Shown here: in pieces, positions 1,339 to 18,549 of the stretch
How the letters are laid out: each line of letters opens with the position of its first letter
Position numbering within the stretch: position 1 is the first letter of the stretch
IMG/VR virus record: IMGVR_UViG_3300037488_001971
Span: 1 to 23,009 of that record
Origin: a virus
Strand: one strand, 5' to 3'
DNA: 23,009 nt
Position numbers and translations under genes: made by a program
The notes under the pieces: model-generated
What the model was told of the DNA's origin: nothing
The model's input: only the letters and a program-made list of their open reading frames with translations
Databases searched by the model: none

Positions 1339-1610
1339 TATTTATATCCTTTCGTTTTTTCATGTTCTTCTAAAAGCCTTACACGAATATTTATTTCAGC
1401 AATTTGTAGTTTAAGTTCTTCTTTAAGCCTAGCTCTTTGTTCTGCTGATATAGGACTATCTGTCGGCACACCTTGTTCTGTGATAAGAATTGGCATTTTA
1501 GATTTGATGTTGATTAAGTCAGCTTGAATAGATGACATTGATGTAAGTAACCATGCAATCGCTGATACGATTACAGGAAACAACATATTGGTTATTTTTT
1601 CCATATTCAT
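1338..1610 (-). CDS. Small membrane-anchored coiled-coil protein in lysis cassette
   Basis: A 90-residue protein with one N-terminal membrane segment (about residues 8-24, LFPVIVSAIAWLLTSM). A soluble tail ends in a charged helix (about 58-86, RARLKEELKLQIAEINIRVRLLEEHEK) that should form a coiled coil. Membrane anchor plus coiled coil next to holin and lysozyme is the look of an inner-membrane spanin or lysis regulator. No lipoprotein partner (o-spanin) is visible, so the role is open. The start is well fixed: ATG at 1610 with AGGAG five bases upstream, overlapping the upstream stop as TAATG. Confidence 0.75.
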   Translation of the reverse strand: MNMEKITNMLFPVIVSAIAWLLTSMSSIQADLINIKSKMPILITEQGVPTDSPISAEQRARLKEELKLQIAEINIRVRLLEEHEKTKGYK

Positions 1611-1954
1611 TAAAACTCCTTTATATCGAAATTATACATCTCACATACTATTTTTGCATACTTTTCAAATCTTTTCCCGTGCTGGTCAAAATCTTTGTGT
1701 TTATTATACCAGAGCATGCAATGAACCATCTCATGTAACATAGTCTGAGATATTTGATCCCATGTTTCGCAACTTTTATCTATTTTAATTACTGGAGGAT
1801 CATTTATAAACCAACCAAACGCCTCACCATCACTAACTACTTGAAATGTTACTTTGTGGGCGGCAGGCATTCTGTATTGATTAAAAGGCGGTAACGATAA
1901 GAAAGACCTATATATTTTGCGTAGGTTCTGTTTGGTTAGCAATTTTGTAGCCAT
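1610..1954 (-). CDS. SprT-like zinc metalloprotein
   Basis: A 114-residue protein with the SprT-type zinc motif HEMVH (residues 74-78) and a third ligand candidate His92 in DQHGKRF. It lacks the C-terminal zinc-ribbon of full SprT/Spartan proteins. Members of the fold include DNA-protein-crosslink proteases, but the phage versions are uncharacterised. The 5' end overlaps the HNH gene by 47 bases in another frame. Two in-frame ATGs exist (1963 and 1954). Neither has a strong ribosome site; I prefer 1954 because it gives the common MATKLLTKQN N-terminus. Confidence 0.8.
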   Translation of the reverse strand: MATKLLTKQNLRKIYRSFLSLPPFNQYRMPAAHKVTFQVVSDGEAFGWFINDPPVIKIDKSCETWDQISQTMLHEMVHCMLWYNKHKDFDQHGKRFEKYAKIVCEMYNFDIKEF

Positions 1955-2348
1955 AATCTGCATCCGTATATTGAATTATTCCATTACTTGTGTAATGAAG
2001 ATACACACCTATATTTTCCTCTGATGTTTTATTGGTGTGACATGGCGCACATAAACTTTGAAATATATTATTTTTAAATTTAATACCATCCTGCCTATGC
2101 GGAAATACATGGTCAATATGTTCGGCTGATACAACTTTTCCATCAAGCAAACAGGATGCGCATAACGGATTTTTGCTTAATTGAGCTACTCTTTGTTTTT
2201 TCCAATATGCAGTGGAGTAAAGTTTGCTATTTTCCTTACCCTTTTCGGTCATTCCGCCACCATGATCGGCGCAGAATGTTGAGCGGTAGGTTTTCTGATT
2301 GGGGCAACCTAACTCCCTGCATTTGGTGTTCTTAGGAACAGTAGGCAT
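1908..2348 (-). CDS. HNH endonuclease
   Basis: A 146-residue protein with two zinc-binding parts. The first is an N-terminal Cys/His cluster (C10, C15, C26, H29). The second is a classic HNH core with C63-x2-C66, H77-I-D-H80, N93/N94 and C100-x2-C103-H104. The fold nicks or cuts DNA using one metal ion. In phages such genes are either free-standing homing nucleases or packaging helpers beside terminase. No terminase is nearby, so a homing or modification-cassette role is possible. It begins just after the TET/JBP-like dioxygenase stop (TAAA-ATG). Confidence 0.88.
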   Translation of the reverse strand: MPTVPKNTKCRELGCPNQKTYRSTFCADHGGGMTEKGKENSKLYSTAYWKKQRVAQLSKNPLCASCLLDGKVVSAEHIDHVFPHRQDGIKFKNNIFQSLCAPCHTNKTSEENIGVYLHYTSNGIIQYTDADYGYKIANQTEPTQNI

Positions 2349-2349
2349 T

Positions 2350-3147
2350 TTACCAATGATTCTTAAATGCTTTTAGCGCATAAAATACTAAAGTATTCCT
2401 ATAGCCATCTTCTTTCAATGGTATAATCGGCGTCACCCCGTGAACATTCCGCCAAGCAGGATAAACTAAAATAGAATTATCCGAGCTATCTACTGTTGCA
2501 TCATAATCAGGAACAGTCGTATTACCGCCTTTAGCGTTACTTCTCTTTGCAATTATTACATTAACGCAGTCTTTAAGATTACCACCATCGATATGATAAT
2601 TAGCAGCGATATTGAAATTAGAGATGCTAGAAGTAAACAATCTACCAAATCTGAAACGAGGAGGGACATTTTCTTCGACTGCTTTAAGCTGTTTTTCGTA
2701 TACATTTGGGGCTAACTCCTTAATGAGTTCTTCTGCTTCGTTACAAGCAAGAAGCATAGCTTTAATGAATGTTTGAGCAGATTCTACTTCATGCACTCTT
2801 GAAATTCTTGGGTATGGCATACGCATATGAGGTCTAGGCGCACAGCTTCCTAAAATAGTGCTGAACTGATCTACATGTTTCATGCCTTTTTCTGCAAGCA
2901 TTTTTTTATAAAACTCGCTGTTAGGTCCACGGCTCATAACTTCTTTAGGAACTCTATCAGATAAAAGCTCTGCATTAGCGATTTCAGCGAATTGTTTTAA
3001 CTTTGCAGGCACTTCCTTCAAATAAAACCCAATCGGCTCACCATCAGCATAGAAAATGCTATCCTCAGTAACATTTGGTTTTAAATTTCCGCATGTATCA
3101 CCAATCTTTATATTATGCTCATGCAAAACTAAATCAACATGATTCAT
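2350..3147 (-). CDS. TET/JBP-like 2-oxoglutarate/Fe(II) dioxygenase (predicted DNA base hydroxylase)
   Basis: A 265-residue protein. The last third carries the double-stranded beta-helix ligand set: H185-x-D187 (YHIDGGN), distal His236 (NVHGVTP) and the 2-oxoglutarate-binding Arg250 (GYRNTLVFY), with GG at 207-208. The spacing and the N-V-H-G-V-x-P-I motif resemble the TET/JBP class, which hydroxylates the methyl group of 5-methylcytosine or thymine in DNA. The first 150 residues are helical and unassigned. It overlaps the glycosyltransferase gene by ATGA. That partner is of the TET-associated type, which strongly supports a DNA-base substrate. No cytosine-5 methyltransferase is in this window, so the target base is undetermined. 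A generic dioxygenase is the alternative. Confidence 0.75.
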   Translation of the reverse strand: MNHVDLVLHEHNIKIGDTCGNLKPNVTEDSIFYADGEPIGFYLKEVPAKLKQFAEIANAELLSDRVPKEVMSRGPNSEFYKKMLAEKGMKHVDQFSTILGSCAPRPHMRMPYPRISRVHEVESAQTFIKAMLLACNEAEELIKELAPNVYEKQLKAVEENVPPRFRFGRLFTSSISNFNIAANYHIDGGNLKDCVNVIIAKRSNAKGGNTTVPDYDATVDSSDNSILVYPAWRNVHGVTPIIPLKEDGYRNTLVFYALKAFKNHW

Positions 3148-3875
3148 TTAACTACCTTTTTATAATGAGATGCAAATCCTTTTATATCAGACTTAATATC
3201 TATACGACCATTTTTATTCTGAAGAGTTAAAAATGGATGCCACTCTTTCACCATTTTTATAGCCGCTTCCTCATCTCGTTTTGCTTTATAATCTTCATGT
3301 AGTCCACCGGAATTAGTTCCGACATTTGGACAGGCAAACCAATAGTGGTTAAACCTTAGTGTGCCACTACCTCTTTTGATAGTTTGTAGTGCGAAATCCC
3401 TATCTTCTTTGAACTTAAATTGCTCTCTATATTTCCATGTGATGTTTTTTGTATTAATCAATACGCAAACTTCAGCATACTTGCGATTAATGGAATAAGA
3501 AGTTTTTTCGTGCCAAGCGTGCTGTGTGTAATTAATGCCGACTAACTCAAATGGAAGTTTTGAAGCTTTTTCAAAAATCTCAAACCATATTTTCGCACCG
3601 AGATTAACAGTTTTGCCGTTAAAGATTCCGAACCCCGTCACATCATCATCACAAATGATAATCCAATCATGATTGTGTTGTCTCGCGTAGTCCAGCATAA
3701 AATTTCGAACATATACAATTCCTTTATCATCTTTCTCAATGTTCACTTTGTTAGGAACATCGTAAGAATCAAACTCTTGAGGCTCGATAAAGTGTATAAA
3801 CTCTATCCCTGCTTCTTCGAATAATTTATATGTTTTAGTATTTTGTCTTGATTTTGTAGGTATATAACAAATCAT
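3144..3875 (-). CDS. TET-associated glycosyltransferase (TAGT-like, GT-A fold)
   Basis: A 243-residue putative glycosyltransferase. Visible features are an N-terminal IPTKSR nucleotide-sugar loop (residues 5-10), EAGIEFIHFIEPQE (21-34), R57-N58, a metal-binding triad D76-D77-D78 (IICDDDV), and a C-terminal KEDRD (156-160) followed by NHYWF and GTNSGG (186-191). This order agrees with the TAGT family predicted to add sugars to hydroxymethylated DNA bases. Genes on both sides overlap by four bases (ParB upstream, dioxygenase downstream), so the three are translated as a unit. Sugar donor and base acceptor cannot be read from sequence. Confidence 0.78.
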   Translation of the reverse strand: MICYIPTKSRQNTKTYKLFEEAGIEFIHFIEPQEFDSYDVPNKVNIEKDDKGIVYVRNFMLDYARQHNHDWIIICDDDVTGFGIFNGKTVNLGAKIWFEIFEKASKLPFELVGINYTQHAWHEKTSYSINRKYAEVCVLINTKNITWKYREQFKFKEDRDFALQTIKRGSGTLRFNHYWFACPNVGTNSGGLHEDYKAKRDEEAAIKMVKEWHPFLTLQNKNGRIDIKSDIKGFASHYKKVVK

Positions 3876-4477
3876 AAGCCTTGATCTTTGACTGCTTTCA
3901 TTTCTCGTTCAAAATATTCCAACATCATGTAGCCAACATAAGCATCTTGATCACGCCAAAATTTAACAACTAACTGCGCACGCTCATAGTGTTCAGGCTC
4001 AAACTCTATTTGTATTGCTTTTCTTACACCTTTTGCCATATCATCTAACTGTGAGCCAACGTCATGCTGGTCTAAAATAGAATAATCAATATCTTTAATT
4101 TGAAGTTCGGAAGGATCGAAAGCTAAAACGCTGATGTCAAAATCAGCTAACTTTAAATCCTCTATTTCTTGAATTAGTAATGATTCGTCCCACTCGCCAT
4201 TAAGAGCAATTTTATTGTCTGCAATAATAAATGCTTTCTTTTGATCGTCGCTTAAATCTGATGCGCTAATCGTCGGCACTTCTTTAATATTTAATTTTTT
4301 AGCGGCTTCAACTCTGCCGTGACCTGCAAGAATATTATCGCCATCGACAATAACTGGGTTTCTAAAACCAAATTCTTTAATAGAAGCGGCTATTTGATCT
4401 AACTGAGCATCTGTATGAATACGACTGTTTTTTTCGTAGGGGATTAAATCTATTATCTTTTTATACTCTATCTTCAT
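3872..4477 (-). CDS. ParB/Srx-domain protein (stand-alone, phage type)
   Basis: A 201-residue protein. Residues 1-125 are a ParB N-terminal domain of the kind normally fused to DNA methyltransferases in phages and mobile elements: NSRIHTDAQLDQIAASIKEFGF, the nucleotide-binding GHGR at 52-55, and ADNKIALNGEWDE. Here the methyltransferase domain is absent. It is replaced by a roughly 70-residue tail (VRKAIQIEFEPEHYERAQ, then KFW...AYVGYMMLE) seen in other phage ParB-like proteins. It heads the modification cassette, starting at an ATG with AAGGAG five bases upstream. Such ParB domains may bind CTP/ATP or nick DNA; the activity here is unknown. A partition role is unlikely without ParA. Confidence 0.85.
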   Translation of the reverse strand: MKIEYKKIIDLIPYEKNSRIHTDAQLDQIAASIKEFGFRNPVIVDGDNILAGHGRVEAAKKLNIKEVPTISASDLSDDQKKAFIIADNKIALNGEWDESLLIQEIEDLKLADFDISVLAFDPSELQIKDIDYSILDQHDVGSQLDDMAKGVRKAIQIEFEPEHYERAQLVVKFWRDQDAYVGYMMLEYFEREMKAVKDQGL

Positions 4478-4515
4478 AAAAACTCCTTAATAAATTATTC
4501 TACTACAAAAGTTCT
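4478..4515 (-). promoter_or_regulatory. Candidate promoter for the ParB-TAGT-TET/JBP cassette
   Basis: The short gap after the Ref-like stop contains, on the minus strand, TTTTGTAGTAGAATAAT followed by AAGGAG and the ParB start. The 12-mer TTTTGTAGTAGA is identical to the element upstream of the rightward early genes at 8040-8050. TAGAAT is a fair -10 box. No good -35 is visible at the expected distance. It would give the cassette its own start inside the leftward operon. Confidence 0.42.
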
Positions 4516-4781
4516 AGTGTTTGTTGTAAAAGTTGCGATTCTGTTCCATACTTCGTTTCAAATGTTTTTTGACCCGCGTGGAGCGCGATTCCAAACCCAC
4601 CATTTTGATGATGCATAGGGCAAAGCGGTATGGCAAGAGACCAATGGCTTTTTTGACCAATGCCAGCGCCATGTCTAATATGGTGTATGTGAGGTGCAGA
4701 ATACCCAAAACCAAGATTGCGACACACAATGCAACCAAGTTGAGACAATTTTTCATAATGCTTCCTTTCATCTTTGATCAT
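4503..4781 (-). CDS. Ref-family (RecA-dependent) nuclease-like protein
   Basis: A 92-residue HNH-related protein with a C17-x2-C20 pair (GCIVCRN), an HIHHIRHG core (31-38), PLCPMHHQ (52-59) and a C-terminal TKYGTESQLL. This order is typical of the recombination-enhancement (Ref) nucleases and their lambdoid DUF968-type relatives. P1 Ref cuts DNA in RecA-bound displacement loops. It overlaps the NinB stop by ATGA, a logical pairing with a recombination mediator. It may help recombination-dependent replication or resolve intermediates. Confidence 0.78.
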   Translation of the reverse strand: MIKDERKHYEKLSQLGCIVCRNLGFGYSAPHIHHIRHGAGIGQKSHWSLAIPLCPMHHQNGGFGIALHAGQKTFETKYGTESQLLQQTLELL

Positions 4782-5131
4782 TGCCAGCTAAATCCGATTT
4801 CGGTAGCCGCCCAAGCCTCAATATTTTCTTGATATTGGGTCATGTCCTCGACCGATAATTTAGTGGTGCTTTTAAGAACTTCAAACACTTCATCATTAAT
4901 AATGCGTTCTGTCCTTAAAAATTTGTATTTCATCATCTTATGTATTTCGTCTTGGCTGTAACCAAGATAATCGCCTATAGCTTTATACATAGCCCATAGT
5001 CGGTCATTTTGTTCGTTTGTTCTCACATCTTTACTTTCCGTAAGAACTATCTTCCATTTTTTTGAGTAATCTAGAGCCTCTAGCTTCGCCACTAGGAAAG
5101 GTAGGTTTTGTTTTGTAATGATCCATTGCAT
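4778..5131 (-). CDS. ninB: NinB/Orf-family recombination mediator
   Basis: A 117-residue protein with the NinB signature: RTNEQNDRLWAMYKAIGDYLG (37-57), EIHKMMKYKFL (62-72), STTKLSVEDMTQYQENIEAWA (88-108) and a terminal GFSWQ. Lambda NinB (Orf) binds single-stranded DNA and replaces RecFOR in loading the recombinase, which fits the recombination genes elsewhere in the window. The ATG at 5131 has AAGAGG nine bases upstream. The gene overlaps the tail of its upstream neighbour by about 100 bases, unusually long, yet both proteins look conserved. Confidence 0.88.
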   Translation of the reverse strand: MQWIITKQNLPFLVAKLEALDYSKKWKIVLTESKDVRTNEQNDRLWAMYKAIGDYLGYSQDEIHKMMKYKFLRTERIINDEVFEVLKSTTKLSVEDMTQYQENIEAWAATEIGFSWQ

Positions 5132-5291
5132 ATTGTTTAGCCTCTTGTGGTGTGTTGAATATTTTTATTTGCGTGTTAGGCAAATCCCATAATATATATC
5201 TTGCATTATCAGCAATTTTATATTTGGCAATAGAATATCCGTTTGCTGTTATTGCGTATTCCCCATGCTTTTTCCATCTAAACTCTGACAT
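5031..5291 (-). CDS. Conserved phage protein of unknown function
   Basis: An 86-residue protein starting MSEFRWKKHGEYAITANGYSIAKYKI, a pattern I recognise from small hypothetical proteins near phage recombination genes. A TxxEAKQYA helix follows at about 47-56. Its last 33 codons overlap the NinB start region in another frame and encode a basic, low-conservation tail. Its first 14 bases overlap the preceding gene. Coding potential of the N-terminal half is convincing; no function can be assigned. Confidence 0.72.
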   Translation of the reverse strand: MSEFRWKKHGEYAITANGYSIAKYKIADNARYILWDLPNTQIKIFNTPQEAKQYAMDHYKTKPTFPSGEARGSRLLKKMEDSSYGK

Positions 5292-5706
5292 TTCTAGCCG
5301 CTAGAGCTTCTTTCGCGAATCGTAATGAAATATCAGGATAGTTTTTCGGGTTAGCAATAATTCTTTTAGCCCAAGCTTTTGGATCAGTAGTAGGCTTAGG
5401 TGCTTTCTCAACAGCCTCTAGCATTTTTTCTGAAAATACTTTGCTTTCTCCCTTTAACATTTTTGGTGGTGGAAGTTTAGTATATTCTGTGGGTATGGGG
5501 CATAACCTGATAATGTCTGCGGGAGTAGGTGCGTAAGTAGATTTGCTGGTATGTGTATTAAACGCTTTACATACTGCTACGAAATCAAATTGCTGTAATT
5601 TTGCAAACCAAATACGCATCATGTCTAATTCAACATTTGGCTCACCATAAATATTCATAACAGAGTTAATCATATTCATAAAATTTCTCTTATCTTGTTC
5701 TAACAT
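5278..5706 (-). CDS. Probable replicative helicase loader/inhibitor (G39P-like)
   Basis: A 142-residue protein. Its N-terminal half (about residues 1-70) has the helical pattern of the phage G39P/DnaA-D-like loader family: MRIWFAKLQQFDFVAVCKAFNTH followed by YAPTPADIIRLC. Such proteins deliver a replicative helicase to the origin. The C-terminal half has a conserved-looking WAKRIIANPKNYPDISLRFAKEAL segment (111-134). The location downstream of the O-like initiator gene supports a replication role. The start is firm: AGGAG five bases before the ATG at 5706. The family call rests on pattern similarity only. Confidence 0.6.
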   Translation of the reverse strand: MLEQDKRNFMNMINSVMNIYGEPNVELDMMRIWFAKLQQFDFVAVCKAFNTHTSKSTYAPTPADIIRLCPIPTEYTKLPPPKMLKGESKVFSEKMLEAVEKAPKPTTDPKAWAKRIIANPKNYPDISLRFAKEALAARNVRV

Positions 5707-5714
5707 AACAACTC

Positions 5715-5858
5715 CTATTTAATCATTAAATATAAACCAACATTACCTATCGCATAACCAAAATAACATATACCCATTCCATTATTACCTACTATAAATT
5801 GTTCAACACTAATGTATGAATAAATCAGTCCTGTGATAATAATTAATGTATGGCTCAA
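5715..5858 (-). CDS. Tiny membrane protein, TTG start
   Basis: A 47-codon frame starting at TTG (5858) that overlaps the preceding stop as TTGA. It ends in TAG inside the AGGAG of the next gene. The peptide reads (M)SHTLIIITGLIYSYISVEQF, then GICYFGYAIGNVGLYLMIK: two short hydrophobic helices with VEQ and GNxG between them, a pattern I have seen in small phage membrane proteins. No strong ribosome site precedes the TTG, so translation would rely on coupling to the gene before it. It fills an otherwise empty 138-base gap exactly, which is the main argument for it. Confidence 0.55.
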   Translation of the reverse strand: MSHTLIIITGLIYSYISVEQFIVGNNGMGICYFGYAIGNVGLYLMIK

Positions 5859-6034
5859 AATGGCGGTTCTTCAGTTATAAAATCAAATACATTTTCTCTT
5901 GGTGCTGGCGGTAATTTTTTTATGCGATGTTTAGGTCTGTGCAAAATGTAACATTCAGCTTCATGTTTAGTGCGAAACCTACGAATAGGCTCACCATAAT
6001 CATCAAACACTAAATATCTAAATAAAATTTCCAT
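5855..6034 (-). CDS. Small conserved phage protein
   Basis: A 59-residue protein, MEILFRYLVFDDYGEPIRRF followed by RTKHEAECYILHRP and a basic/proline-rich tail ending EEPPF. Short proteins with the FDDYGEPxRRFxTKxEA pattern recur in phage genomes; function unknown. I chose the ATG at 6034, which overlaps the preceding tiny gene's stop as TAATG. The longer reading from 6079 would add 15 hydrophobic residues that belong to the other frame's protein. Confidence 0.7.
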   Translation of the reverse strand: MEILFRYLVFDDYGEPIRRFRTKHEAECYILHRPKHRIKKLPPAPRENVFDFITEEPPF

Positions 6035-6132
6035 TAATATCTCGAAAAAATAAAAACACAGGCAAATATAGTCCACCACAATAAGCTGGCGTCATGAATA
6101 TAAAAGTTATACGCCACTAATAATTCAAGCAT
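6034..6132 (-). CDS. Tiny single-pass membrane protein (32 aa)
   Basis: ATG at 6132 overlaps the previous gene's end (ATGCTTGA), and TAA overlaps the next start (TAATG). The peptide starts MLELLVAYNFYIHDASLLWW and continues TIFACVFIFSRY: a polar N-terminal half with one hydrophobic helix and a basic end. There is no strong ribosome site, so coupling is likely. Perfect nesting between neighbours and a plausible membrane topology support it. Function unknown. Confidence 0.55.
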   Translation of the reverse strand: MLELLVAYNFYIHDASLLWWTIFACVFIFSRY

Positions 6133-6256
6133 TAAAAAATCTCACAAACATTAAATCGATTAAGGTATGAATTCCAATTAATAGACCAATTATACCGCCG
6201 ATTATTAAAGTCCAAACTATAATCTCTAAAATTAGTTCAAAATGTTGCGTCTTCAA
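6125..6256 (-). CDS. Tiny membrane protein, TTG start with strong ribosome site (43 aa)
   Basis: A 43-codon frame starting at TTG (6256), preceded by AGGAG with nine bases of spacing (6266-6270). The sequence is (M)KTQHFELILEIIVWTLIIGG, then IIGLLIGIHTLIDLMFVRFFNA: one glycine-zippered hydrophobic helix of about 20 residues with a short basic end. It overlaps the preceding gene's stop by 20 bases and the next tiny gene by eight. The good ribosome site in front of a non-ATG start is the deciding evidence. Small size and GxxxG-like pattern could suit a membrane modulator, but no function can be assigned. Confidence 0.62.
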   Translation of the reverse strand: MKTQHFELILEIIVWTLIIGGIIGLLIGIHTLIDLMFVRFFNA

Positions 6257-6488
6257 TTTTTTCTGCTCCTAGTAATTTTTTAGTATCACCATCAAAGATT
6301 AATATAATATTTTTATCTTCATCATCTATTTTATCTTTTTTATTTAAACCAACAGAGCCATTATTCATTATATGCGCGTAGCATCTATAAACAATAGGCT
6401 CTTTTTTTTCAACAACTGTCGGCTTTCCTACAGATTTAGGGATTTTAATCTCTCCCATGATTTGCTTTACAAAAAATTCTAAACTCAT
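6237..6488 (-). CDS. Hypothetical protein (83 aa)
   Basis: A charged protein with a probable beta-rich C-terminal half (PIVYRCYAHIMNNGSVGL, then KNIILIFDGDTKKLLGAEKI). The ATG at 6488 has AAGGA six bases upstream. It sits between the SleB-like hydrolase and the run of tiny membrane proteins. I do not recognise a family. Confidence 0.7.
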   Translation of the reverse strand: MSLEFFVKQIMGEIKIPKSVGKPTVVEKKEPIVYRCYAHIMNNGSVGLNKKDKIDDEDKNIILIFDGDTKKLLGAEKIEDATF

Positions 6489-6505
6489 ATCTTGTCCTTG
6501 GTCTT

Positions 6506-6859
6506 TTAATAAAAAATGTGATTGTTGTATGCTACTTTAATTGTTTTATCTTTAGCCCAATAAGGTTTCATATTTTTAGTATGGAACCATTTAGCCCCTT
6601 TTGTTGGATCATCGATCCTACCTTGCAATATCGCTTCAGCTAATGGCATTAAGTAAGCAACCTGCTGTTTACTTGGCATACCATAATCTAAAAATTGATA
6701 TTGCTTTGGTTGTTTCATGACCGAACAAATATTTTTCGGATACTTTGGGTCAGCTTTACGATTAATTGCTGTATAAGCGACAGCGACTTTGCCAATATCT
6801 GGCTCACCGCGAGCTTCACCAAACATAATTGCTGATAAACATAAGATTTCATTTATCAT
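6506..6859 (-). CDS. SleB-type cell-wall hydrolase
   Basis: A 117-residue protein matching the hydrolase-2 (SleB) fold: FGEARGEP (13-20) with the catalytic Glu15, AYTAINRK (28-35), and the C-terminal AKWFHTKNMKPYW and HIFY. The family consists of lytic transglycosylase-like peptidoglycan hydrolases. No signal peptide is present and the gene lies among replication genes, not with the holin/lysozyme pair. It may instead be a virion-associated or early cell-wall enzyme. The ATG at 6859 has AGGAGG four bases upstream, decisive over the longer reading from 6904. Confidence 0.85.
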   Translation of the reverse strand: MINEILCLSAIMFGEARGEPDIGKVAVAYTAINRKADPKYPKNICSVMKQPKQYQFLDYGMPSKQQVAYLMPLAEAILQGRIDDPTKGAKWFHTKNMKPYWAKDKTIKVAYNNHIFY

Positions 6860-6867
6860 TTTTCCTC

Positions 6868-7548
6868 CTAGAAAGTTATCGGAATAGGCGGTTCGTCTTT
6901 CCACCTACCTTGATTCAGGTAAGTAGTAGGATTTGGTATGAACTGCCCACCATTCTTAAACCATTGATCGCTTTTAACTTGCCAATCTAATGCTATAAGT
7001 ACTTCTTCTATATTAGGTCTTGTTTTATTCCAAGATTCTAATGCCTTATCTTTACCTACTTTTTTAGGGTAAGCATTCCAAAATTTTAGAAACTCATCAC
7101 TCTCTAATAACTTGGTTTTTGGTTTATTAGTTATTGGTTTATGGTTTATGGTTAGTGGTTTATGGTTTATGGTTTGCATAGCGGTCGGTATGCGTTCAAT
7201 ATGCGTTCGCATTGCGGTCGCATCACTTTCCTTACCCCACCTTAGTTTCGCGGCAACAACAGCGCGTTCAGATTTAGTTTGATAAGCTTCAATTTCAATA
7301 TCGCACCGCTTATGAATATATCCATCTTCAGTTTTAACAAAAAAATCTTCAAGAACACTTTGTATGGCAATCTTTTCATCTTCACTCCTTGCGCTCATTA
7401 AGCGATATAATTTGGTTTCTTCTAGGGGTATTGGTTGTTCTGAGAGGTAATACTGATCTATAAGCTGATGATAAACGCCATGTTCTAACAATGATAGATG
7501 GCTTGTATCCTTCCTGTAATCAGCTATATTGTGTTGGTAATAATGCAT
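6868..7548 (-). CDS. YdaU/DUF1376-type replication initiator (O-like)
   Basis: A 226-residue protein. Residues 1-100 carry the YdaU (DUF1376) domain: MHYYQHNIADYRKDTSHLSLLEHG, QLIDQYYLSEQPIPL, and the RAVVAAKLRWG helix. A low-complexity linker (about 110-148, with the repeated INHKP) joins it to a C-terminal domain typical of phage replication proteins (DEFLKFWNAYPKKVGKDKA, FIPNPTTYLNQGRWKDEPP). It probably recognises the origin and recruits helicase via the loader encoded downstream. The linker-coding DNA holds iteron-like repeats, as in lambda O. The start is set by AGGAG four bases before the ATG at 7548; the stop lies in the next gene's ribosome site. Confidence 0.83.
   Translation of the reverse strand: MHYYQHNIADYRKDTSHLSLLEHGVYHQLIDQYYLSEQPIPLEETKLYRLMSARSEDEKIAIQSVLEDFFVKTEDGYIHKRCDIEIEAYQTKSERAVVAAKLRWGKESDATAMRTHIERIPTAMQTINHKPLTINHKPITNKPKTKLLESDEFLKFWNAYPKKVGKDKALESWNKTRPNIEEVLIALDWQVKSDQWFKNGGQFIPNPTTYLNQGRWKDEPPIPITF
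7135..7174. repeat. Two 19-bp direct repeats (period 21) inside the initiator gene: candidate origin iterons
   Basis: TGGTTTATGGTTTATGGTT occurs at 7135-7153 and again, identical, at 7156-7174. The period is 21 bases, two DNA helical turns. Each copy contains a 7-base subrepeat (TTTATGG). Related partial copies flank it at 7113-7134. At 7181-7222 there are further doublets (GCGGTCG and TATGCGTTC, each twice). The block encodes the initiator's INHKP-type linker. The position matches lambda, where the origin iterons lie inside gene O. Origin function is inferred. Confidence 0.5.
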
Positions 7549-7564
7549 AATACTCCTTTTTGTC

Positions 7565-7593
7565 TTATTGTTACAAAACGAAGTATTGCCCAA
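7565..7593 (-). promoter_or_regulatory. Candidate leftward promoter before the replication initiator
   Basis: On the minus strand TTGGGC (7593-7588) is followed, 15 bases from its first base, by TTTTGTA (7578-7572). This is the same spacing as TTGG...TTTTGTA in the two rightward leaders at 8024 and 9323. The -10 would fall on CAATAA, which is weak. Immediately upstream is a short A/T stem (AACTTTC 7592-7598 with GAAAGTT 7607-7613) after the VRR-NUC stop. That stem may be a weak terminator or processing site. Confidence 0.35.
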
Positions 7594-7616
7594 CTTTCAA
7601 AAAAAAGAAAGTTTTT

Positions 7617-7967
7617 TTATCCTTTAAGGTAATTCTTTATGGTTTCTTTCGCTTCGACAAAACCGTAGCATACTTCAGCATCATAACCCATATTTTTAGC
7701 TAACTTTTGAAATTCTAACTGATTTTCCTGCGCTTTTCCACCTTTAGCTTTCATTTCTATAAACAACCCACATTTGGGCGACTTTGGAATCATTAAAAAC
7801 AAATCTGATACACCCGCCATAACACCCTCGCGTTTGAGCTTTATAGCCGTGCCAATGTTCCTTACACCACCATTTGGGATGGCGAAAAGGCAACCCCTAA
7901 TCAAAGGATATTGTAGTCTGAACCATTCTATAAGTGCCACTTGTTCTTTGTGTTCGTCGTTTTTCAT
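7617..7967 (-). CDS. VRR-NUC domain nuclease
   Basis: A 116-residue stand-alone VRR-NUC protein: PNGGVRN (31-37), KLKREGVMAGVSDLFL with catalytic Asp55, then FIEMKAKGGKAQENQ with the ExK pair Glu71/Lys73. The family is a PD-(D/E)XK nuclease; phage members cut branched DNA. As first gene of the leftward operon it faces the rightward operon across 115 bases. No ribosome site is evident before the ATG at 7967, so it may be translated from a near-leaderless message. Confidence 0.9.
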   Translation of the reverse strand: MKNDEHKEQVALIEWFRLQYPLIRGCLFAIPNGGVRNIGTAIKLKREGVMAGVSDLFLMIPKSPKCGLFIEMKAKGGKAQENQLEFQKLAKNMGYDAEVCYGFVEAKETIKNYLKG

Positions 7968-8004
7968 CGCTTTTATAAAATATTTATAAAAAAAGTAAAA
8001 AAAA

Positions 8005-8077
8005 GCTTTTCTTTTCTCAGAAGTTGGAAGATGATTCTTTTTGTAGTAGATTTTATCTTAACAGGAATTGAAAGGAA
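8005..8077 (+). repeat. Promoter/leader repeat, copy 1
   Basis: A block of about 75 bases shared with 9304-9373. Matching parts in order are GCTTT-CTTTT-CT, then TTGGAAGAT at the same 19-base offset, TTTTGTAGTA, and an identical TTAACAGGAATTGAAAGGAA just before the start codon. Differences are substitutions plus a five-base length change between the -10 region and the start. Confidence 0.75.
8024..8052 (+). promoter_or_regulatory. Rightward early promoter, copy 1
   Basis: TTGGAA (8024-8029), a 17-base spacer ending TTTTTGTAG, and TAGATT (8047-8052) form a sigma-70-like pair. The region from GCTTTTCTTTTCT (8005) through TTAACAGGAATTGAAAGGAA (8058-8077) recurs almost entirely before the gene at 9377. 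Conservation of both the boxes and their spacing between the two copies is the main support. Confidence 0.6.
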
Positions 8078-8082
8078 ACGAT

Positions 8083-8250
8083 ATGAGAATTACAGGCGCT
8101 TATTGCATTATCGAAACACTTGCTGAGAAAAAAAACATTAATTTCTCTCAAGCCCTCCAGTATGTTGCAGAAAATTACAAGTCTTGCGACAAATACCAAA
8201 AAATTGCATACGATACTTTAGCTAATCCAGCAGTTCAGGTTCCCGTATGA
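8083..8250 (+). CDS. Small hypothetical protein (55 aa)
   Basis: MRITGAYCIIETLAEKKNIN, then a helical middle (FSQALQYVAENYKSC) and a short tail ending VQVPV. I chose the ATG at 8083, five bases after AAAGGAA/ACG; an in-frame TTG at 8068 lies inside the ribosome site itself. It is the first gene of the rightward operon and its stop overlaps the next start as ATGA. No family is recognised. Early position after a strong leader suggests a host-takeover or regulatory peptide, which is only inference. Confidence 0.72.
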   Translation: MRITGAYCIIETLAEKKNINFSQALQYVAENYKSCDKYQKIAYDTLANPAVQVPV

Positions 8251-8504
8251 AATTACTAACCGCACTATTAATCGCACTGCCAATCGTATCATTCGCGGGT
8301 GAATCACCTAAGCTTCGTTATAATTGGGTCGAAGGTAAATATAATTACGCCCCTAAAGAAGCCAAGCTCAAATACAATTGGACTGCCGATCAGTATGAAT
8401 TTGTAATGCCGAACTCCAAACTTAAACTTAATACGCAAAGCAATAACTACGAGTATGTGCAAACTCAAATTGATCCATATAAATCACAAATAGGGGAAGA
8501 ATAA
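8247..8504 (+). CDS. Exported small protein with three short repeats
   Basis: An 85-residue protein. Residues 1-18 form a signal peptide (MKLLTALLIALPIVSFAG, with likely cleavage after Ala17 or Gly18). The mature part has three tandem repeats of about 19 residues: PKLRYNWVEGKYNYAPKEA, KLKYNWTADQYEFVMPNS and KLKLNTQSNNYEYVQTQ. The shared pattern is KLxYNxxxxxYEY. Similar YN...WEYAP repeat proteins occur in other phages; I know no function. It should act in the periplasm or on the surface. Superinfection exclusion or envelope modulation are possible but unproven. Confidence 0.8.
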   Translation: MKLLTALLIALPIVSFAGESPKLRYNWVEGKYNYAPKEAKLKYNWTADQYEFVMPNSKLKLNTQSNNYEYVQTQIDPYKSQIGEE

Positions 8505-8611
8505 TGAAAAAAGATTTAATTCTTGGATGTATTTTTGCAATTGCTTTTTGGGCTTATGTAGCACTTTGGCTTTATGTGGGCTACCCATATTTAATTAAAT
8601 TATTTGGATAG
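8504..8611 (+). CDS. Tiny membrane protein (35 aa)
   Basis: ATG at 8504 overlaps the previous stop as TAATG and has AGGGGAAG just upstream. The peptide is MKKDLILGCIFAIAFWAYVA then LWLYVGYPYLIKLFG: one membrane helix after a basic start (positive-inside). It ends in TAG within the ribosome site of the next gene. It follows a secreted repeat protein, so the two may act together at the envelope. No family recognised. Confidence 0.72.
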   Translation: MKKDLILGCIFAIAFWAYVALWLYVGYPYLIKLFG

Positions 8612-8619
8612 GATAAAAA

Positions 8620-8949
8620 ATGACACAAGACAATAAATATAACGGCTGGACTAATTATGCTACTTGGCGAGTTGCGTTAGAAATATTTGATCCATTTGAT
8701 ATGTCTGATTATTATCAAACATACATGCTCAAGACCTATGAATTTGGTCAGTTTTTAAAAGAATATGCCGATGACATTGTATTCATGAATATTCCACCAA
8801 ATAATAATAGCCTTGCGATAGATTATGCTGGCGCTTTCCTTCAAGAAGTTAATTGGTATGAAATAGCCGATCATATAATTCAAGATTATGAATATGAGTT
8901 AAAAGCTTCTGATGAAAATACAAGAGAGGATTATGATGAAACTGTATAA
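8620..8949 (+). CDS. DUF7249-like phage protein
   Basis: A 109-residue acidic protein beginning with the conserved YNGWTNYATWRVALEIFD (residues 7-24), a signature of small phage proteins grouped as DUF7249 (from memory). The remainder is helical with Asp/Tyr-rich segments (WYEIADHIIQDYEYEL). Function unknown. AGGA lies six bases before the ATG. The last 14 bases overlap the next gene. Confidence 0.8.
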   Translation: MTQDNKYNGWTNYATWRVALEIFDPFDMSDYYQTYMLKTYEFGQFLKEYADDIVFMNIPPNNNSLAIDYAGAFLQEVNWYEIADHIIQDYEYELKASDENTREDYDETV

Positions 8950-9376: not shown

Positions 9377-9898
9377 ATGAACATATTTTATTTGCACAAT
9401 AACCCTCGCGACTGCGCTATCATGCACCTTGATAAGCATTGCGTCAAAATGATCTTAGAATATTCCCAGCTTCTCTCTACTGCTCATCGTGTTCTTGACG
9501 GCGACGATTATGCTGACGCGCATGGTTTTTACAAAAAAACTCATATGAATCACCCTTCTGCCGTATGGGTTCGTAAAAGTGCTGACAATTATGCTTGGCT
9601 TGTTCAATTATTATCTTTTTTATGTATAGAATATACTTACCGATACGGCAAAATACATAAAGTTCAGGATACAAGATTAATGCATAAACTTTTTTTAATA
9701 CCTAATAACATTGGCACAGAGCCGTTCACCGAGCCTACTCCTGCTATGCCTGACGACTGCAAAATAATTAATGATTCAATTGCTTCTTATCGTAAATATT
9801 ACCAATTATATAAAGCTCATATTGCTAAATGGACTGATCGTAATATGCCTTATTGGTTTGATAAAAATGCTTTGCAATTCAACAATTTGGGAGTATGA
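9377..9898 (+). CDS. Conserved phage protein with DKHxVKMILE core
   Basis: A 173-residue protein. Its N-terminus (MNIFYLHNNPRDCAIMHLDK followed by HCVKMILEYSQLLSTAHRVLDG) and KTHMNHPSAVWVRKSADNYAWL (54-75) form a pattern I recognise from cyanophage and other marine phage proteins, mostly annotated as hypothetical. Several conserved His, Asp and Cys residues could bind metal. It directly follows the second promoter copy, so it is expressed early and probably strongly. A nucleic-acid enzyme role is possible, but I can point to no established motif. Confidence 0.82.
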   Translation: MNIFYLHNNPRDCAIMHLDKHCVKMILEYSQLLSTAHRVLDGDDYADAHGFYKKTHMNHPSAVWVRKSADNYAWLVQLLSFLCIEYTYRYGKIHKVQDTRLMHKLFLIPNNIGTEPFTEPTPAMPDDCKIINDSIASYRKYYQLYKAHIAKWTDRNMPYWFDKNALQFNNLGV

Positions 9899-13631: not shown

Positions 13632-13829
13632 CTAATTGATAAGATGCTTTTCAATAGCCAAATAAAGACTACCATCATTGTTGCCGCTAGATATATAAGC
13701 AACAGAGCCATCAGATAGTAAAATAACCAAATAATTTTTACCATCGAAGTAATCAGCGCCAATATCTTTGATTGTTTTATTTTGTAGAAAATCGAAATGA
13801 TCGTCAATGGTATCATAAAAATCTTGCAT
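13632..13829 (-). CDS. Small hypothetical protein (65 aa)
   Basis: MQDFYDTIDDHFDFLQNKTI, followed by a probable beta-hairpin (NYLVILLSDGSVAYISSG) and a short helix. It starts 17 bases inside the end of the GT9-like gene. A competing frame at 13619-13816 encodes only a hydrophobic, low-complexity peptide, so this frame is preferred. No family recognised. Confidence 0.62.
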   Translation of the reverse strand: MQDFYDTIDDHFDFLQNKTIKDIGADYFDGKNYLVILLSDGSVAYISSGNNDGSLYLAIEKHLIN

Positions 13830-14256
13830 TCAAACTTTCTATCACTATTTCAGGACTGACAAATTTGTTAGCATCATGTTCCGTTTGTTCCCACCATAGG
13901 AATTGGTTTTGAACCAAATTGCTTCGATCCTTTATAAGATTAATATTTTCAGGGTGTCCAAATATTAAAGGATCAGAAACCGACCACAATACTATACCAT
14001 ATTTTTTTTTATCCCAAGCAAAATGTTGAAAAAAAGAATCGCAACTTATCCATGTTTTGCAATCATTTACAAGGCTTTCAAGCTCTTTAAGTGATAAGTT
14101 TTTTCTAAAGTCAGGCACTAATTGTTCTTCACCATCTATACCTACTTGAACAATTGGTTCTTTAATTAGTTCAATAAGTTCTTTCCAATAAGGATAATTT
14201 TTTGCATTAGTTTTTCCATTTCTTAAAGCTTTAGAATAAGGGCTAATAATAATCAT
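13813..14256 (-). CDS. GT9/heptosyltransferase-like C-terminal domain protein
   Basis: A 147-residue protein that looks like the second Rossmann half of a GT-B (family 9-like) glycosyltransferase: IIISPYSKALRNGK (2-15), NYPYWKELIELI (20-31), PIVQVGIDGE (34-43), LVNDCKTWISCDSFFQH (62-78, with the donor-site SxDSFFxH motif), and SDPLIFGHPENINL. Its N-terminal half appears to be the last 80 residues of the preceding gene, with which it overlaps by ATGA. The two products may therefore form one active transferase. Likely substrate: a sugar for a fibre or surface glycan. Confidence 0.72.
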   Translation of the reverse strand: MIIISPYSKALRNGKTNAKNYPYWKELIELIKEPIVQVGIDGEEQLVPDFRKNLSLKELESLVNDCKTWISCDSFFQHFAWDKKKYGIVLWSVSDPLIFGHPENINLIKDRSNLVQNQFLWWEQTEHDANKFVSPEIVIESLNARFL

Positions 14257-15221
14257 ATATACATTTTTCTATAAGCATTCTCTAAATTGTCAGTCCATTT
14301 CCATTGCGCCATTTTTCTATAAATATTCCATTGCTCTATATCGCCAAATAAAGCTTTAGCTTCAGCAATTGATTTGCCTGGCACTATGTCAGGATAGCAA
14401 GTAAATACTTCCGCATTTGTAATGTCAGGCATTACATGACTAAATACAATATGATCGCCCATGCCGCAATTAAGAACTACAATCTTTTTATCTTTATAAG
14501 CAATTGTATTTCTAAAAATTGATTCATCTTGCTCATATAATTTTTGATTTGTTTCTGATCTAATACCACCATTAGGATTTTTAAGATGCCAGCTAACCGC
14601 ATTAGGAACTGCAAGAATTTTATATCCTTTTAGGTATAAGCCATAAGTAAATAAAGTTTCTTCTCTATGCGCTACTCTTGAAAGACCTGTATTGTAATCA
14701 TGCACCCCAGCTCTATAAAGAAAAGAACAATGAAGATGCTCAACTTCTTTTACTTTGTGAATAAATGACCATTGAATGTTAGGCTCTGTATCTATATTTT
14801 CTATTTTGCCTGTAGGTTTAAAGCTTTCAAATTGTAATGGCGGTGTTAGTATTGCGCCACCTATAGCACCTACTTTTTTGCTTGTGTAATTAAATAAAGT
14901 TTGTAAGACATTGGGTTCGGGTATTGCATCATCATCAACGCGCCATACCCAATCAAATTCCATAGTATTAGCCATTTGATGAATATGATGCTGACCTTTT
15001 TTGTGAGCATAAACCCATTCCCAAGCAATGCCTTTAATATCAAGCATTTTAAAAAAGTAGCTATAAACCAACTCTTTTCGCATATCTTGTGGCTCATCAT
15101 TATCATCAAAAATAACTAGCTTATCAACCTTTTTTGTCTGATTAATTATAGAGTTAAGCGTTAAAGGTAAAGTAGTTTGATAACGACCACGAGTAGCTAC
15201 CGAGCAAAGAACTTTATCCAC
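14253..15221 (-). CDS. Family 2 glycosyltransferase with GT-B-like C-terminal extension
   Basis: A 322-residue protein. Residues 1-235 are a GT2/GT-A domain: CSVATRGR (6-13), KLVIFDDNDEP (34-44), metal-binding D96-D97-D98 in WRVDDDAIPEP, REE at 186-188 and VSWHL (209-213). Residues 245-322 (KKIVVLNCGMGDHIVFSHVM) match the first Rossmann strand and glycine loop of GT9 transferases, and the downstream gene supplies the rest. The start codon is GTG at 15221, overlapping the methyltransferase stop by eight bases. It probably transfers sugar to a virion or fibre component made from the same operon. Confidence 0.83.
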   Translation of the reverse strand: MDKVLCSVATRGRYQTTLPLTLNSIINQTKKVDKLVIFDDNDEPQDMRKELVYSYFFKMLDIKGIAWEWVYAHKKGQHHIHQMANTMEFDWVWRVDDDAIPEPNVLQTLFNYTSKKVGAIGGAILTPPLQFESFKPTGKIENIDTEPNIQWSFIHKVKEVEHLHCSFLYRAGVHDYNTGLSRVAHREETLFTYGLYLKGYKILAVPNAVSWHLKNPNGGIRSETNQKLYEQDESIFRNTIAYKDKKIVVLNCGMGDHIVFSHVMPDITNAEVFTCYPDIVPGKSIAEAKALFGDIEQWNIYRKMAQWKWTDNLENAYRKMYI

Positions 15222-15843
15222 GATCCCACCGCATAATCATAAGATTAAATTTATTTTTGTCATTAATTTCGGGTAAAATTTCCGAAATGTAGCCATGTTC
15301 GTTAATATAGTTATATTGAAAGTCGGGAAAGTGTAATTCATTTAGGCCATGAAGTTTATGATGCTCACCCCAAAAGCCTACAGGCTCATTATGCGGAGTA
15401 GTTAATAAAAGGCGTTTGCAATGTTGTTTAAGTTTTTGCGCTATATCAAGGCCATTATCAATATGCTCAATAAATTCAAAAGCAATTATGGTGTCATATT
15501 GCGCTAAAGGATAAGTGTTAATATCAGCGTTAGTAAAAGATGCGTTTAAGCCCCATTCCTGTTCGCGTGCAACCTCTATAATAAGAGGATCGTAATCTAA
15601 TCCTATATAGTTTAAATCATTTGGAAGAAATTGAGAGCCGTAACCTGTGGAACAACCTATTTCAAGAACATTCTTGCCTAATAGATTGCGGTTAGCCCAA
15701 AGATAACGAGTGGCTTCTCTAGGATAGACGGGATCGCCTTTTAGAAAAACCGCTCGCTCATAATTGTTAGATAATAAATATCTATAGTATTGTTGATCGT
15801 GTTGTTTAGCATACGCTAAAGCATCTTGTTTTGTCTTGTCCAT
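15214..15843 (-). CDS. Class I SAM-dependent methyltransferase
   Basis: A 209-residue Rossmann methyltransferase: motif I VLEIGCSTGYGS (59-70), motif II YIGLDYD (79-85), motif III-like TNADINTY (104-111), then IIAFEFIEHI (119-128) and LLLTTPHNEP (145-154). The N-terminus (YYRYLLSNNYERAVF) is helical. It lacks the cytosine-C5 PCQ/ENV motifs and the N6-adenine DPPY, so a DNA methyltransferase is unlikely. Beside glycosyltransferases it more likely methylates a sugar or small molecule. AAGGA precedes the ATG at 15843. Confidence 0.85.
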   Translation of the reverse strand: MDKTKQDALAYAKQHDQQYYRYLLSNNYERAVFLKGDPVYPREATRYLWANRNLLGKNVLEIGCSTGYGSQFLPNDLNYIGLDYDPLIIEVAREQEWGLNASFTNADINTYPLAQYDTIIAFEFIEHIDNGLDIAQKLKQHCKRLLLTTPHNEPVGFWGEHHKLHGLNELHFPDFQYNYINEHGYISEILPEINDKNKFNLMIMRWDRG

Positions 15844-15852
15844 ATTAATCCT

Positions 15853-18549
15853 TTAAACTGGATAAATTGCTAATACCCTATCGTTTAATGCTAATGCAGT
15901 TGTTGTAAATGTAGTGCCGCCCGATACTGTGCAATCAACACCATTAACAAGTATTGAACCATTAACTGAAACTTGAATTTTGTTTGCAGTATAAGTTTGT
16001 GTTGTTGTAAATGAAGTTTGTGCCGCAGTTGCAGTATAAGCATCATAAACCATAGTGTTAGTGCCATTAATTCCGCTATAGCCTGAAATGCCGCTATACC
16101 CTGATATACCTGATGCACCTGAAAATCCACTTATGCCTGATCCACTATAACCTGATATGCCTGAATATCCACTAATGCCTGACGCGCCACTATAACCTGA
16201 AATGCCTGAATCACCGCTAAATCCTGATATACCACTATACCCACTAATGCCGCTAAAACCACTATAGCCTGAAATACCACTAAATCCTGACACACCAATA
16301 TTAATACCTGTATAAGCAACAGATTGAACAACATCGGTTACTGTGCAAGGGCTAATAGTAAATGTAGTGCCATTTGTTGCAGTAACATCAGCATCGGCTA
16401 ATTTAGCACCATTTCTAAATACATCTAAATATCCAACAGTATATGCAACAGTAAATACAGTTTGACTAGCGGATGGAGTAAAATCAGTTACAACTCTTGA
16501 GGTGCTAGTTGCGTTAATGCCACTATAACCTGAATATCCGCTAATACCACTTCCTGAATATCCTGAAATGCCGCTATATCCGCTTATGCCTGACGCACCG
16601 CTATACCCACTAATTCCTGAATCACCACTAAAGCCCGAAATTCCTGACGCTCCGCTAAAGCCTGATATGCCTGAATAACCGCTTATGCCACTATCGCCGC
16701 TATATCCTGATATTCCTGAATAACCACTAAAGCCACTAACGCCTGATCCACTATATCCACTAATTCCTGAATCACCGCTATACCCACTAATTCCTGAAAA
16801 GCCTGATATGCCACTAAAACCACTATAGCCACTAATACCACTATCACCGCTAAAACCTGAAATACCACTATAACCGCTATAGCCTGATATGCCACTAAAA
16901 CCGCTATAGCCTGATATGCCGCTATAACCACTATAGCCCGATACACCATTAACAAGGGCAAATATTAAATTATGATTATTTGCAAAGTTTGTAGTTCCTG
17001 TGCCTGCACTTGAAACTAAAGCAACAGGATAAGCCCAATAAGAAGTTGCACCGCCAGGATTGTAATTAACAGGCGTTCCATTAATAACCCATGTTTGAGA
17101 ATTAACACTTGAGTTTGCATCTTGAATAACAAATTCTTCCGTTTGTTGTAATAAAGATAAATAAATATCTATATCAACATTGTTTTCATTAAGATGAGAA
17201 ACATTAACTATAGTTGAACTTATTTGAGTTGCATTATCCCAAGTAATAGCACCATCGCCTGGATAACCTGATGTTGATGTTGTATTTGCATGATACTCAA
17301 AAAAGCTGGATGATGATCCAGGAATGCCACTAAAGCCACTATAACCACTATAGCCTGAAATACCTGAATCGCCGCTATAACCACTTATGCCGCTATAACC
17401 GCTATAACCACTAATACCGCTATCACCTGAATATCCGCTAATACCGCTATATCCTGAATCACCTGACATACCGCTATAGCCACTATAGCCACTAATGCCG
17501 CTATCACCACTCCAACCTGAAATGCCTGACCAACCTGATTCGCCTGACCAACCACTATAACCACTTATACCTGACCAACCTGAATCACCGCTATAGCCAC
17601 TATAACCGCTTATACCTGATTCGCCTGACCATCCTGATATACCGCTATCACCTGAATATCCGCTAATACCGCTATCGCCGCTAAAACCACTAATTCCGCT
17701 ATCACCACTAAATCCGCTAATGCCACTATCACCTGAATAGCCGCTTTCACCACTATATCCGCTTTCACCACTATAACCACTATATCCACTTGTGCCTTCG
17801 CCGCTATAACCGCTATATCCTGATTCACCTGACCAGCCGCTTAAACCACTATCGCCACTAAAGCCTGATATACCTGAATCGCCACTATAACCTGATTCAC
17901 CGCTATAACCTGAAATGCCTGACGCACCACTATCACCGCTAAAGCCACTTATACCTGAATCGCCACTATAGCCGCTAAAGCCTGAAATACCACTAGCGCC
18001 AGGTGGCCCTACAATTTGACCTACATTAACCCAAGCTGATCCATCCCATACATATAAATCACCATTAGAATCAACAATGTATGCGTCATTTATGTTTGCG
18101 CTTGGCGGTAAAGCCGCAGGATTAGCAACACTTCCAATAATATTAATTGATGTGCCTTGTTGTCCGCTATAGCCTGAAAAACCGCTATAACCTGAAATGC
18201 CTGAATCACCACTATAGCCACTATCACCGCTAAATCCTGAAATGCCTGAATCACCGCTAAATCCTGATATACCACTATCGCCACTATATCCACTAATTCC
18301 TGAATCGCCACTATAGCCGCTTATGCCGCTATCACCTGAATACCCACTATCGCCACTAAATCCACTAATGCCGCTATTTCCACTAAAACCTGAATAGCCG
18401 CTATATCCTGAAATTCCACTAAAGCCACTTGCGCCTGCTCCACTAAATCCTGAATAACCTGATAGACCGCTATAACCTGATTGCCCAGCAGTTAAAAGTT
18501 CAACTTTTAAATTATTTGAATCAACAACTTCTATTTGATAATTAGCCAT
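15853..18549 (-). CDS. Collagen-like (G-X-S repeat) tail-fibre protein
   Basis: An 898-residue fibre built of four collagen-like blocks of Gly-X-Ser triplets (residues about 24-131, 182-411, 536-677 and 752-828). X is mostly Tyr, Ile, Phe, Asp, Glu, Trp or Ala. Globular modules separate them: 132-181 (DLYVWDGSAWVNVG), 412-535, 679-751 (QTVFTVAYTVGYLDVFRNGA) and a C-terminal 829-898. The third and fourth modules resemble each other and a segment of the 21329 gene product. Proline is nearly absent from the repeats, and three GS 'short triplets' shift the phase (near 601, 665 and 802). Such fibres form trimeric stalks carrying receptor-binding heads. Repeat codons are varied synonymously (Ser TCA, AGT, AGC). 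Confidence 0.85.
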   Translation of the reverse strand: MANYQIEVVDSNNLKVELLTAGQSGYSGLSGYSGFSGAGASGFSGISGYSGYSGFSGNSGISGFSGDSGYSGDSGISGYSGDSGISGYSGDSGISGFSGDSGISGFSGDSGYSGDSGISGYSGFSGYSGQQGTSINIIGSVANPAALPPSANINDAYIVDSNGDLYVWDGSAWVNVGQIVGPPGASGISGFSGYSGDSGISGFSGDSGASGISGYSGESGYSGDSGISGFSGDSGLSGWSGESGYSGYSGEGTSGYSGYSGESGYSGESGYSGDSGISGFSGDSGISGFSGDSGISGYSGDSGISGWSGESGISGYSGYSGDSGWSGISGYSGWSGESGWSGISGWSGDSGISGYSGYSGMSGDSGYSGISGYSGDSGISGYSGYSGISGYSGDSGISGYSGYSGFSGIPGSSSSFFEYHANTTSTSGYPGDGAITWDNATQISSTIVNVSHLNENNVDIDIYLSLLQQTEEFVIQDANSSVNSQTWVINGTPVNYNPGGATSYWAYPVALVSSAGTGTTNFANNHNLIFALVNGVSGYSGYSGISGYSGFSGISGYSGYSGISGFSGDSGISGYSGFSGISGFSGISGYSGDSGISGYSGSGVSGFSGYSGISGYSGDSGISGYSGISGFSGASGISGFSGDSGISGYSGASGISGYSGISGYSGSGISGYSGYSGINATSTSRVVTDFTPSASQTVFTVAYTVGYLDVFRNGAKLADADVTATNGTTFTISPCTVTDVVQSVAYTGINIGVSGFSGISGYSGFSGISGYSGISGFSGDSGISGYSGASGISGYSGISGYSGSGISGFSGASGISGYSGISGYSGINGTNTMVYDAYTATAAQTSFTTTQTYTANKIQVSVNGSILVNGVDCTVSGGTTFTTTALALNDRVLAIYPV

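Follow-up and report, generated by a model that had tools for sequence, protein, structure and literature searches.

Which base, and in which nucleic acid, would be modified by a viral locus that encodes a ParB-like protein, a TET-associated glycosyltransferase (TAGT) and a TET/JBP-type 2-oxoglutarate/Fe(II) dioxygenase in immediate succession? The locus lies in a virus record of IMG/VR of 23,009 bp and 36% G+C, analysed over its whole length (hereafter, the window), which may be a partial phage genome; many of the larger relatives bearing a TET gene are about 38-41 kb. A preliminary description had interpreted the three genes as a base-hypermodification cassette under a shared promoter-like element. 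We found this account to be largely right, as the cassette is borne out by profiles, fold, synteny and conservation, while the shared promoter is not.

Results

Organization of the Cassette

The three genes lie on the minus strand in the order ParB (3872..4477, 201 aa), TAGT (3144..3875, 243 aa) and TET (2350..3147, 265 aa). The reading frames are as described before, with 4-bp overlaps at 3872-3875 (ParB/TAGT) and 3144-3147 (TAGT/TET). Directly upstream of ParB, a gene of the RecA-dependent nuclease/HNH family (4503..4781, minus strand; Pfam RecA_dep_nuc, 1.4e-13) holds a position conserved among close relatives; it is a neighbour outside the proposed pathway. An HNH endonuclease gene (1908..2348, minus strand; Pfam HNH, 1.4e-6, and synteny) lies directly downstream of TET and is often retained in relatives. 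The proposed promoter-like element was no better than chance, as the region 1500-8500 contained 23 promoter-like sites against 28.3 expected in shuffled sequences. In addition, the nearest minus-strand site upstream of ParB (4636-4608) falls within the ORF of the upstream nuclease, which is separated from the ParB start by a gap of 25 bp. An AAGGAG ribosome-binding site precedes ParB, as is expected within a longer co-directional run.

The ParB-like protein was assigned from synteny, a match to phrog_620 (1.2e-51) and a ParB_N match (1.3e-5) whose 25.6 bits fall just under the cut-off of 26.3. Its residues 52-55, GHGR, correspond to a GxxR nucleotide-binding-type motif.

Other features were observed elsewhere in the window. 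A collagen-like repeat protein (Pfam Collagen, 7.5e-74) and, near it, a two-part protein are encoded at 15853-18549 and 19116-20264 (both minus strand). The two-part protein ends in a 2OG-Fe(II) oxygenase domain at its C-terminus (PF13640, 5.4e-18), so that the window encodes a further dioxygenase, of another family. ORFs for a methyltransferase, a GT2 glycosyltransferase and a weakly GT9-like protein adjoin the collagen-like gene (13813-15843, minus strand), an island possibly serving surface or tail glycosylation. An ORF on the plus strand (9377-9898) matches phrog_624, "DNA binding protein" (2.9e-54), and no Pfam family.

The Dioxygenase and the Glycosyltransferase

The catalytic centre proposed for the dioxygenase is intact: H185 (codon 2595-2593, minus strand, as for those following), D187 (2589-2587), H236 (2442-2440) and R250 (2400-2398) form an HxD/H/R arrangement that is invariant in 28 relatives and, in a larger relative set, conserved wherever the sequence covers it. 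The Pfam Tet_JBP profile matched at 1.6e-8 with 34.4 bits, 0.5 bits short of its cut-off of 34.9, and phrog_6059 matched at 3e-49. A sequence search of the PDB with the single window protein returned no matches; a profile built from 12 TET relatives recovered TET2 in the PDB at 2e-7. The AF2 model (pLDDT 92.8) had TET2, CcTet, CMD1 and NgTET1 as its top Foldseek matches (best 2e-11). In the structural comparison the VIA Z was 19.1 for TET2 (rmsd 3.5, 242 aligned), 18.8 for NgTET1 and 16.5 for CMD1, and the best non-TET match was FTO with 14.3. The window dioxygenase belongs with the TET enzymes; the placement with small-molecule or protein hydroxylases, which would have spoken against a role on DNA bases, was seen neither in the profiles nor in the fold. 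In the 265-aa protein, Pfam recognised the dioxygenase domain alone. The label "queuine tRNA-ribosyltransferase" carried by phrog_6059 was rejected, as it has no Pfam or fold backing and looks like a mis-annotation.

The glycosyltransferase matched Pfam TAGT (PF20691) at 9.4e-14 with 52.3 bits, above the cut-off of 27.5, and phrog_842 at 1.9e-23. Its DDD motif, already pointed out in the preliminary description, occupies residues 76-78 (3650-3642, minus strand) and is invariant in 15 relatives. The PDB sequence search with the single window protein gave no matches, and the model (pLDDT 71.7) showed Foldseek matches to nucleotidyl- and glycosyltransferases that are too weak for a fold assignment.

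Relatives and the Exchangeable Slot

Relatives of the window TET are encoded by 584 stretches of viral contigs, and a second search, with a Prochlorococcus phage protein as the query, yielded 166 relatives that may overlap this set. Named isolates include Prochlorococcus phages MED4-184/P-HS2, with 50% identity in TET and, in P-HS2, an FkbM-type methyltransferase beside it; more distant TETs occur in Mycobacterium, Microbacterium, Gordonia, Rhodococcus and Arthrobacter phages. ParB stands before TET wherever the upstream sequence reaches at least 4.5 kb (81 of 81 relatives), a constancy across cassettes that argues for a structural or targeting role of the putative DNA-binding protein. In the MED4-184 record (L096), ParB (6620-7261) is annotated "DNA methylase" and TET (7959-8744) "queuine tRNA-ribosyltransferase"; both labels look wrong.

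The gene between ParB and TET varies. Among 166 loci, a number that includes near-duplicates and equals that of the second search by chance, 70 hold an FkbM-type methyltransferase in this slot and 22 a set of P-loop kinase, glutamine amidotransferase (GATase) and amino acid:DNA transferase (ADDT), families assigned from Pfam, with three further loci adding an acetyltransferase-like gene to that set. A TAGT fills the slot in 26 loci, another TAGT-type protein in two, and a divergent TAGT-like glycosyltransferase in 20, the last group aligning with TAGT in profile-profile comparison at probabilities of 96.5% and 97.1%. The remainder comprises ADDT with a second kinase (6 loci), the families F7, F8 and F10 (7 loci), and other or no genes (10 loci). 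When slot type was mapped on a tree of 65 TETs, at least 29 changes were required. Shuffled labels gave 40.7, the minimum being 7; slot types are thus clustered on the tree yet often exchanged. Sister pairs with unlike slots occur (for example, ADDT/GT_F4), and the window's nearest TETs with a different slot include those of L006 (F7), L007 (GT_F4) and L015 (ADDT). This repeated exchange suggests that several chemistries are fed by TETs that are close relatives and should make one and the same product. With the capping gene swapped in related viruses, the kit has the look of a modular system for disguising DNA, akin to the base J pathway of trypanosomes.

Two observations on the slot stand apart. 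The families F7, F8 and F10 gave no significant Pfam match; they occupy the usual place of the glycosyltransferase or ADDT (L006, 8579-10008; L021, 1947-2831) and are possible new base-decorating enzymes. Pelagibacter phage HTVC112P (L124, 4375-6597) shows a ParB-TET-FkbM arrangement with a different TET subtype (D190/R258), so that this logic recurs in another clade of TETs.

The Probable Substrate Base

The window lacks a C5-methyltransferase, as the preliminary description had stated (no PF00145). Across this TET lineage, the domain was not found in 104 of 106 records, one of them the window; most of these records are fragments, and the count pools four scans and leaves out records of the P12024L type, of myoviruses and of cellular origin. 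Among the records lacking it are isolates of phages submitted as complete. The two carriers, L166 and L172, both belong to the FkbM-slot type, and in L166 the gene (1219-2124) is separated from ParB by about 2.5 kb that include other genes. Thymidylate synthase/hydroxymethylase (PF00303) was not found in the 31 records scanned.

An ADDT-family protein accompanied by a P-loop kinase occupies the slot at 31 loci. Of the 25 main-type ADDT proteins, eight were scanned, and each matched PF18724 significantly; the six of the L010/L013 type, two of which were scanned with no Pfam match, are linked to the family by BLAST clustering and profile comparison (89% probability). In actinophage isolates with the same TET type, Mycobacterium phage Prince among them, the genes after TET encode ADDT and P-loop nucleotide kinase 3. 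In phages, ADDT had 377 matching records, foremost among them those of Salmonella, Vibrio, Klebsiella, Escherichia, Mycobacterium and Dickeya phages, and the relatives are mostly ViI-like phages (Salmonella, Dickeya, Shigella) and others. PMC6449724 reports that ViI makes its hypermodified bases from 5hmdU, by way of a 5hmdU-DNA kinase. The TAGT of T6-like phages acts on cytosine-derived bases (PMC13390438), so that TAGT itself is no pointer to thymine; the window carries this glycosyltransferase, not ADDT, in its slot, and 5hmC is, in principle, a possible starting point for a kinase/ADDT route as well.

The cassette very probably hydroxylates and glycosylates a 5-methylpyrimidine in DNA. The near-absence of C5-methyltransferases, the lack of PF00303 and the kinship of ADDT with ViI-like phages favour thymine over 5-methylcytosine, and thymine is probably, though by no means surely, the oxidised base. 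The idea is not wholly new, as the TET of Mycobacterium phage Prince has already been annotated "thymidine hydroxylase" by one annotator.

The active site was compared with that of TET2. The segment from R250 to L258 (codon 2376-2374) aligns with TET2 RISLVFYQH, the last residue of which is H1904, a residue that contacts 5mC; at the corresponding position, 162 of 164 sequences have Leu. N190 (2580-2578) aligns with TET2 N1387 and is Asn in 166 of 168 sequences. L258 is suggestive, being compatible with thymine but not diagnostic. A C5-methyltransferase was likewise not found in the D190/R258 group (P12024L, HTVC112P), so the residue signature fails to separate substrates cleanly, and the active-site argument for thymine, drawn from a comparison with TET2, is weak.

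Discussion

We propose that the dioxygenase would convert thymine in phage DNA into 5-hydroxymethyluracil (5hmU) by hydroxylating its 5-methyl group, a step for which a methyltransferase or hydroxymethylase is unneeded because thymine has the methyl group already. The TAGT would then move a sugar onto the hydroxymethyl group, yielding a base-J-like glycosyl-5hmU, and the ParB-like protein might, more speculatively, bind DNA and recruit or position the enzymes. On balance, we lean towards such a post-replicative hypermodification cassette, leading from thymine through 5hmU to its glycosylated form. By analogy with known phage systems, the modified base would block host nucleases, and masking of the phage DNA is plausible. 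The chances are slightly better than even for the broader proposal that this widespread phage TET lineage consists of thymine hydroxylases, the window phage making base-J-like glycosylated 5-hydroxymethyluracil and related phages producing methylated or amino-acid-linked thymines by combining this hydroxylase with other enzymes in the exchangeable slot.

A different substrate for the same cassette has to be weighed, namely 5mC supplied by a C5-methyltransferase of the host or encoded separately, with TAGT glycosylating 5hmC. Characterised phage TET systems do work on 5mC, Methylophilales phage Melnitz has a C5-methyltransferase gene directly before its TET, and the position of N190 at TET2 N1387 agrees with this substrate, as do the two carriers among the 106 records. 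Host C5-methyltransferases are also common in at least one host phylum, being present in 231 of 386 cyanobacterial genomes, a phylum-level count that says nothing on Prochlorococcus MED4. However, the gene is missing from nearly all cassette records, complete deposits among them, and in L166 it stands off from ParB behind intervening genes. A cellular bin (G045), which may be incomplete, likewise has the cassette without a C5-methyltransferase, and the pairing of ADDT with a kinase fits thymine chemistry. We therefore regard oxidation of 5mC as unlikely, though it deserves consideration.

It is more doubtful still that the locus acts elsewhere than on phage DNA bases, that is, on RNA, on the nucleotide pool or on host DNA for takeover. 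The name of phrog_6059 would agree with such a role, but that label lacks Pfam and fold support, the fold is nearest to TET enzymes solved on DNA, and TAGT and ADDT are families of DNA-base enzymes. Although the Tet_JBP score just below the Pfam cut-off might be taken as a sign of decay, a degraded or inactive remnant is highly improbable, given the intact and overlapping reading frames, the catalytic residues kept in every covering relative and the large number of relatives.

If thymine is the substrate, these proteins would be thymine hydroxylases of bacterial viruses, would allow thymidine hypermodification to begin after replication, and might represent a viral origin of the base J pathway. 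The slot would offer a natural catalogue of enzymes that decorate one hydroxymethyl handle with sugars, methyl groups or amino acids, of use in labelling DNA and in studies of how restriction is evaded.

The phage TETs of Burke et al. 2021 (PNAS; cited in PMC12730594) reportedly act on 5mC and lie in clusters of TET, C5-methyltransferase and glycosyltransferase genes. The present cassette resembles them in combining a phage TET/JBP dioxygenase with a glycosyltransferase for base hypermodification, but there a C5-methyltransferase is co-encoded, whereas the present lineage nearly always lacks one and keeps ParB throughout. Iyer, Zhang, Burroughs and Aravind are said to have predicted phage TET/JBP-TAGT systems and other decorating enzymes in 2013; measured here are the fixed order of ParB, slot and TET, the number of exchanges and the near-absence of C5-methyltransferases in this lineage. 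In the ViI/M6-type pathway (5hmdU, 5hmdU-DNA kinase, amino acid:DNA transferase), the ADDT-family protein and P-loop kinase correspond to the slot of cassette relatives. However, 5hmdU arrives there via the nucleotide pool, whereas TET is the only candidate source found here, and the window slot holds a glycosyltransferase. The kinetoplastid base J pathway (JBP1/JBP2 thymidine hydroxylase and JGT) shares the succession of a TET/JBP-superfamily hydroxylase and a DNA glycosyltransferase and, if our favoured reading is right, thymine as the sole requirement; in the present case the gene is viral, ParB is co-encoded, no J-binding domain is recognised by Pfam, and activity on thymine is predicted.
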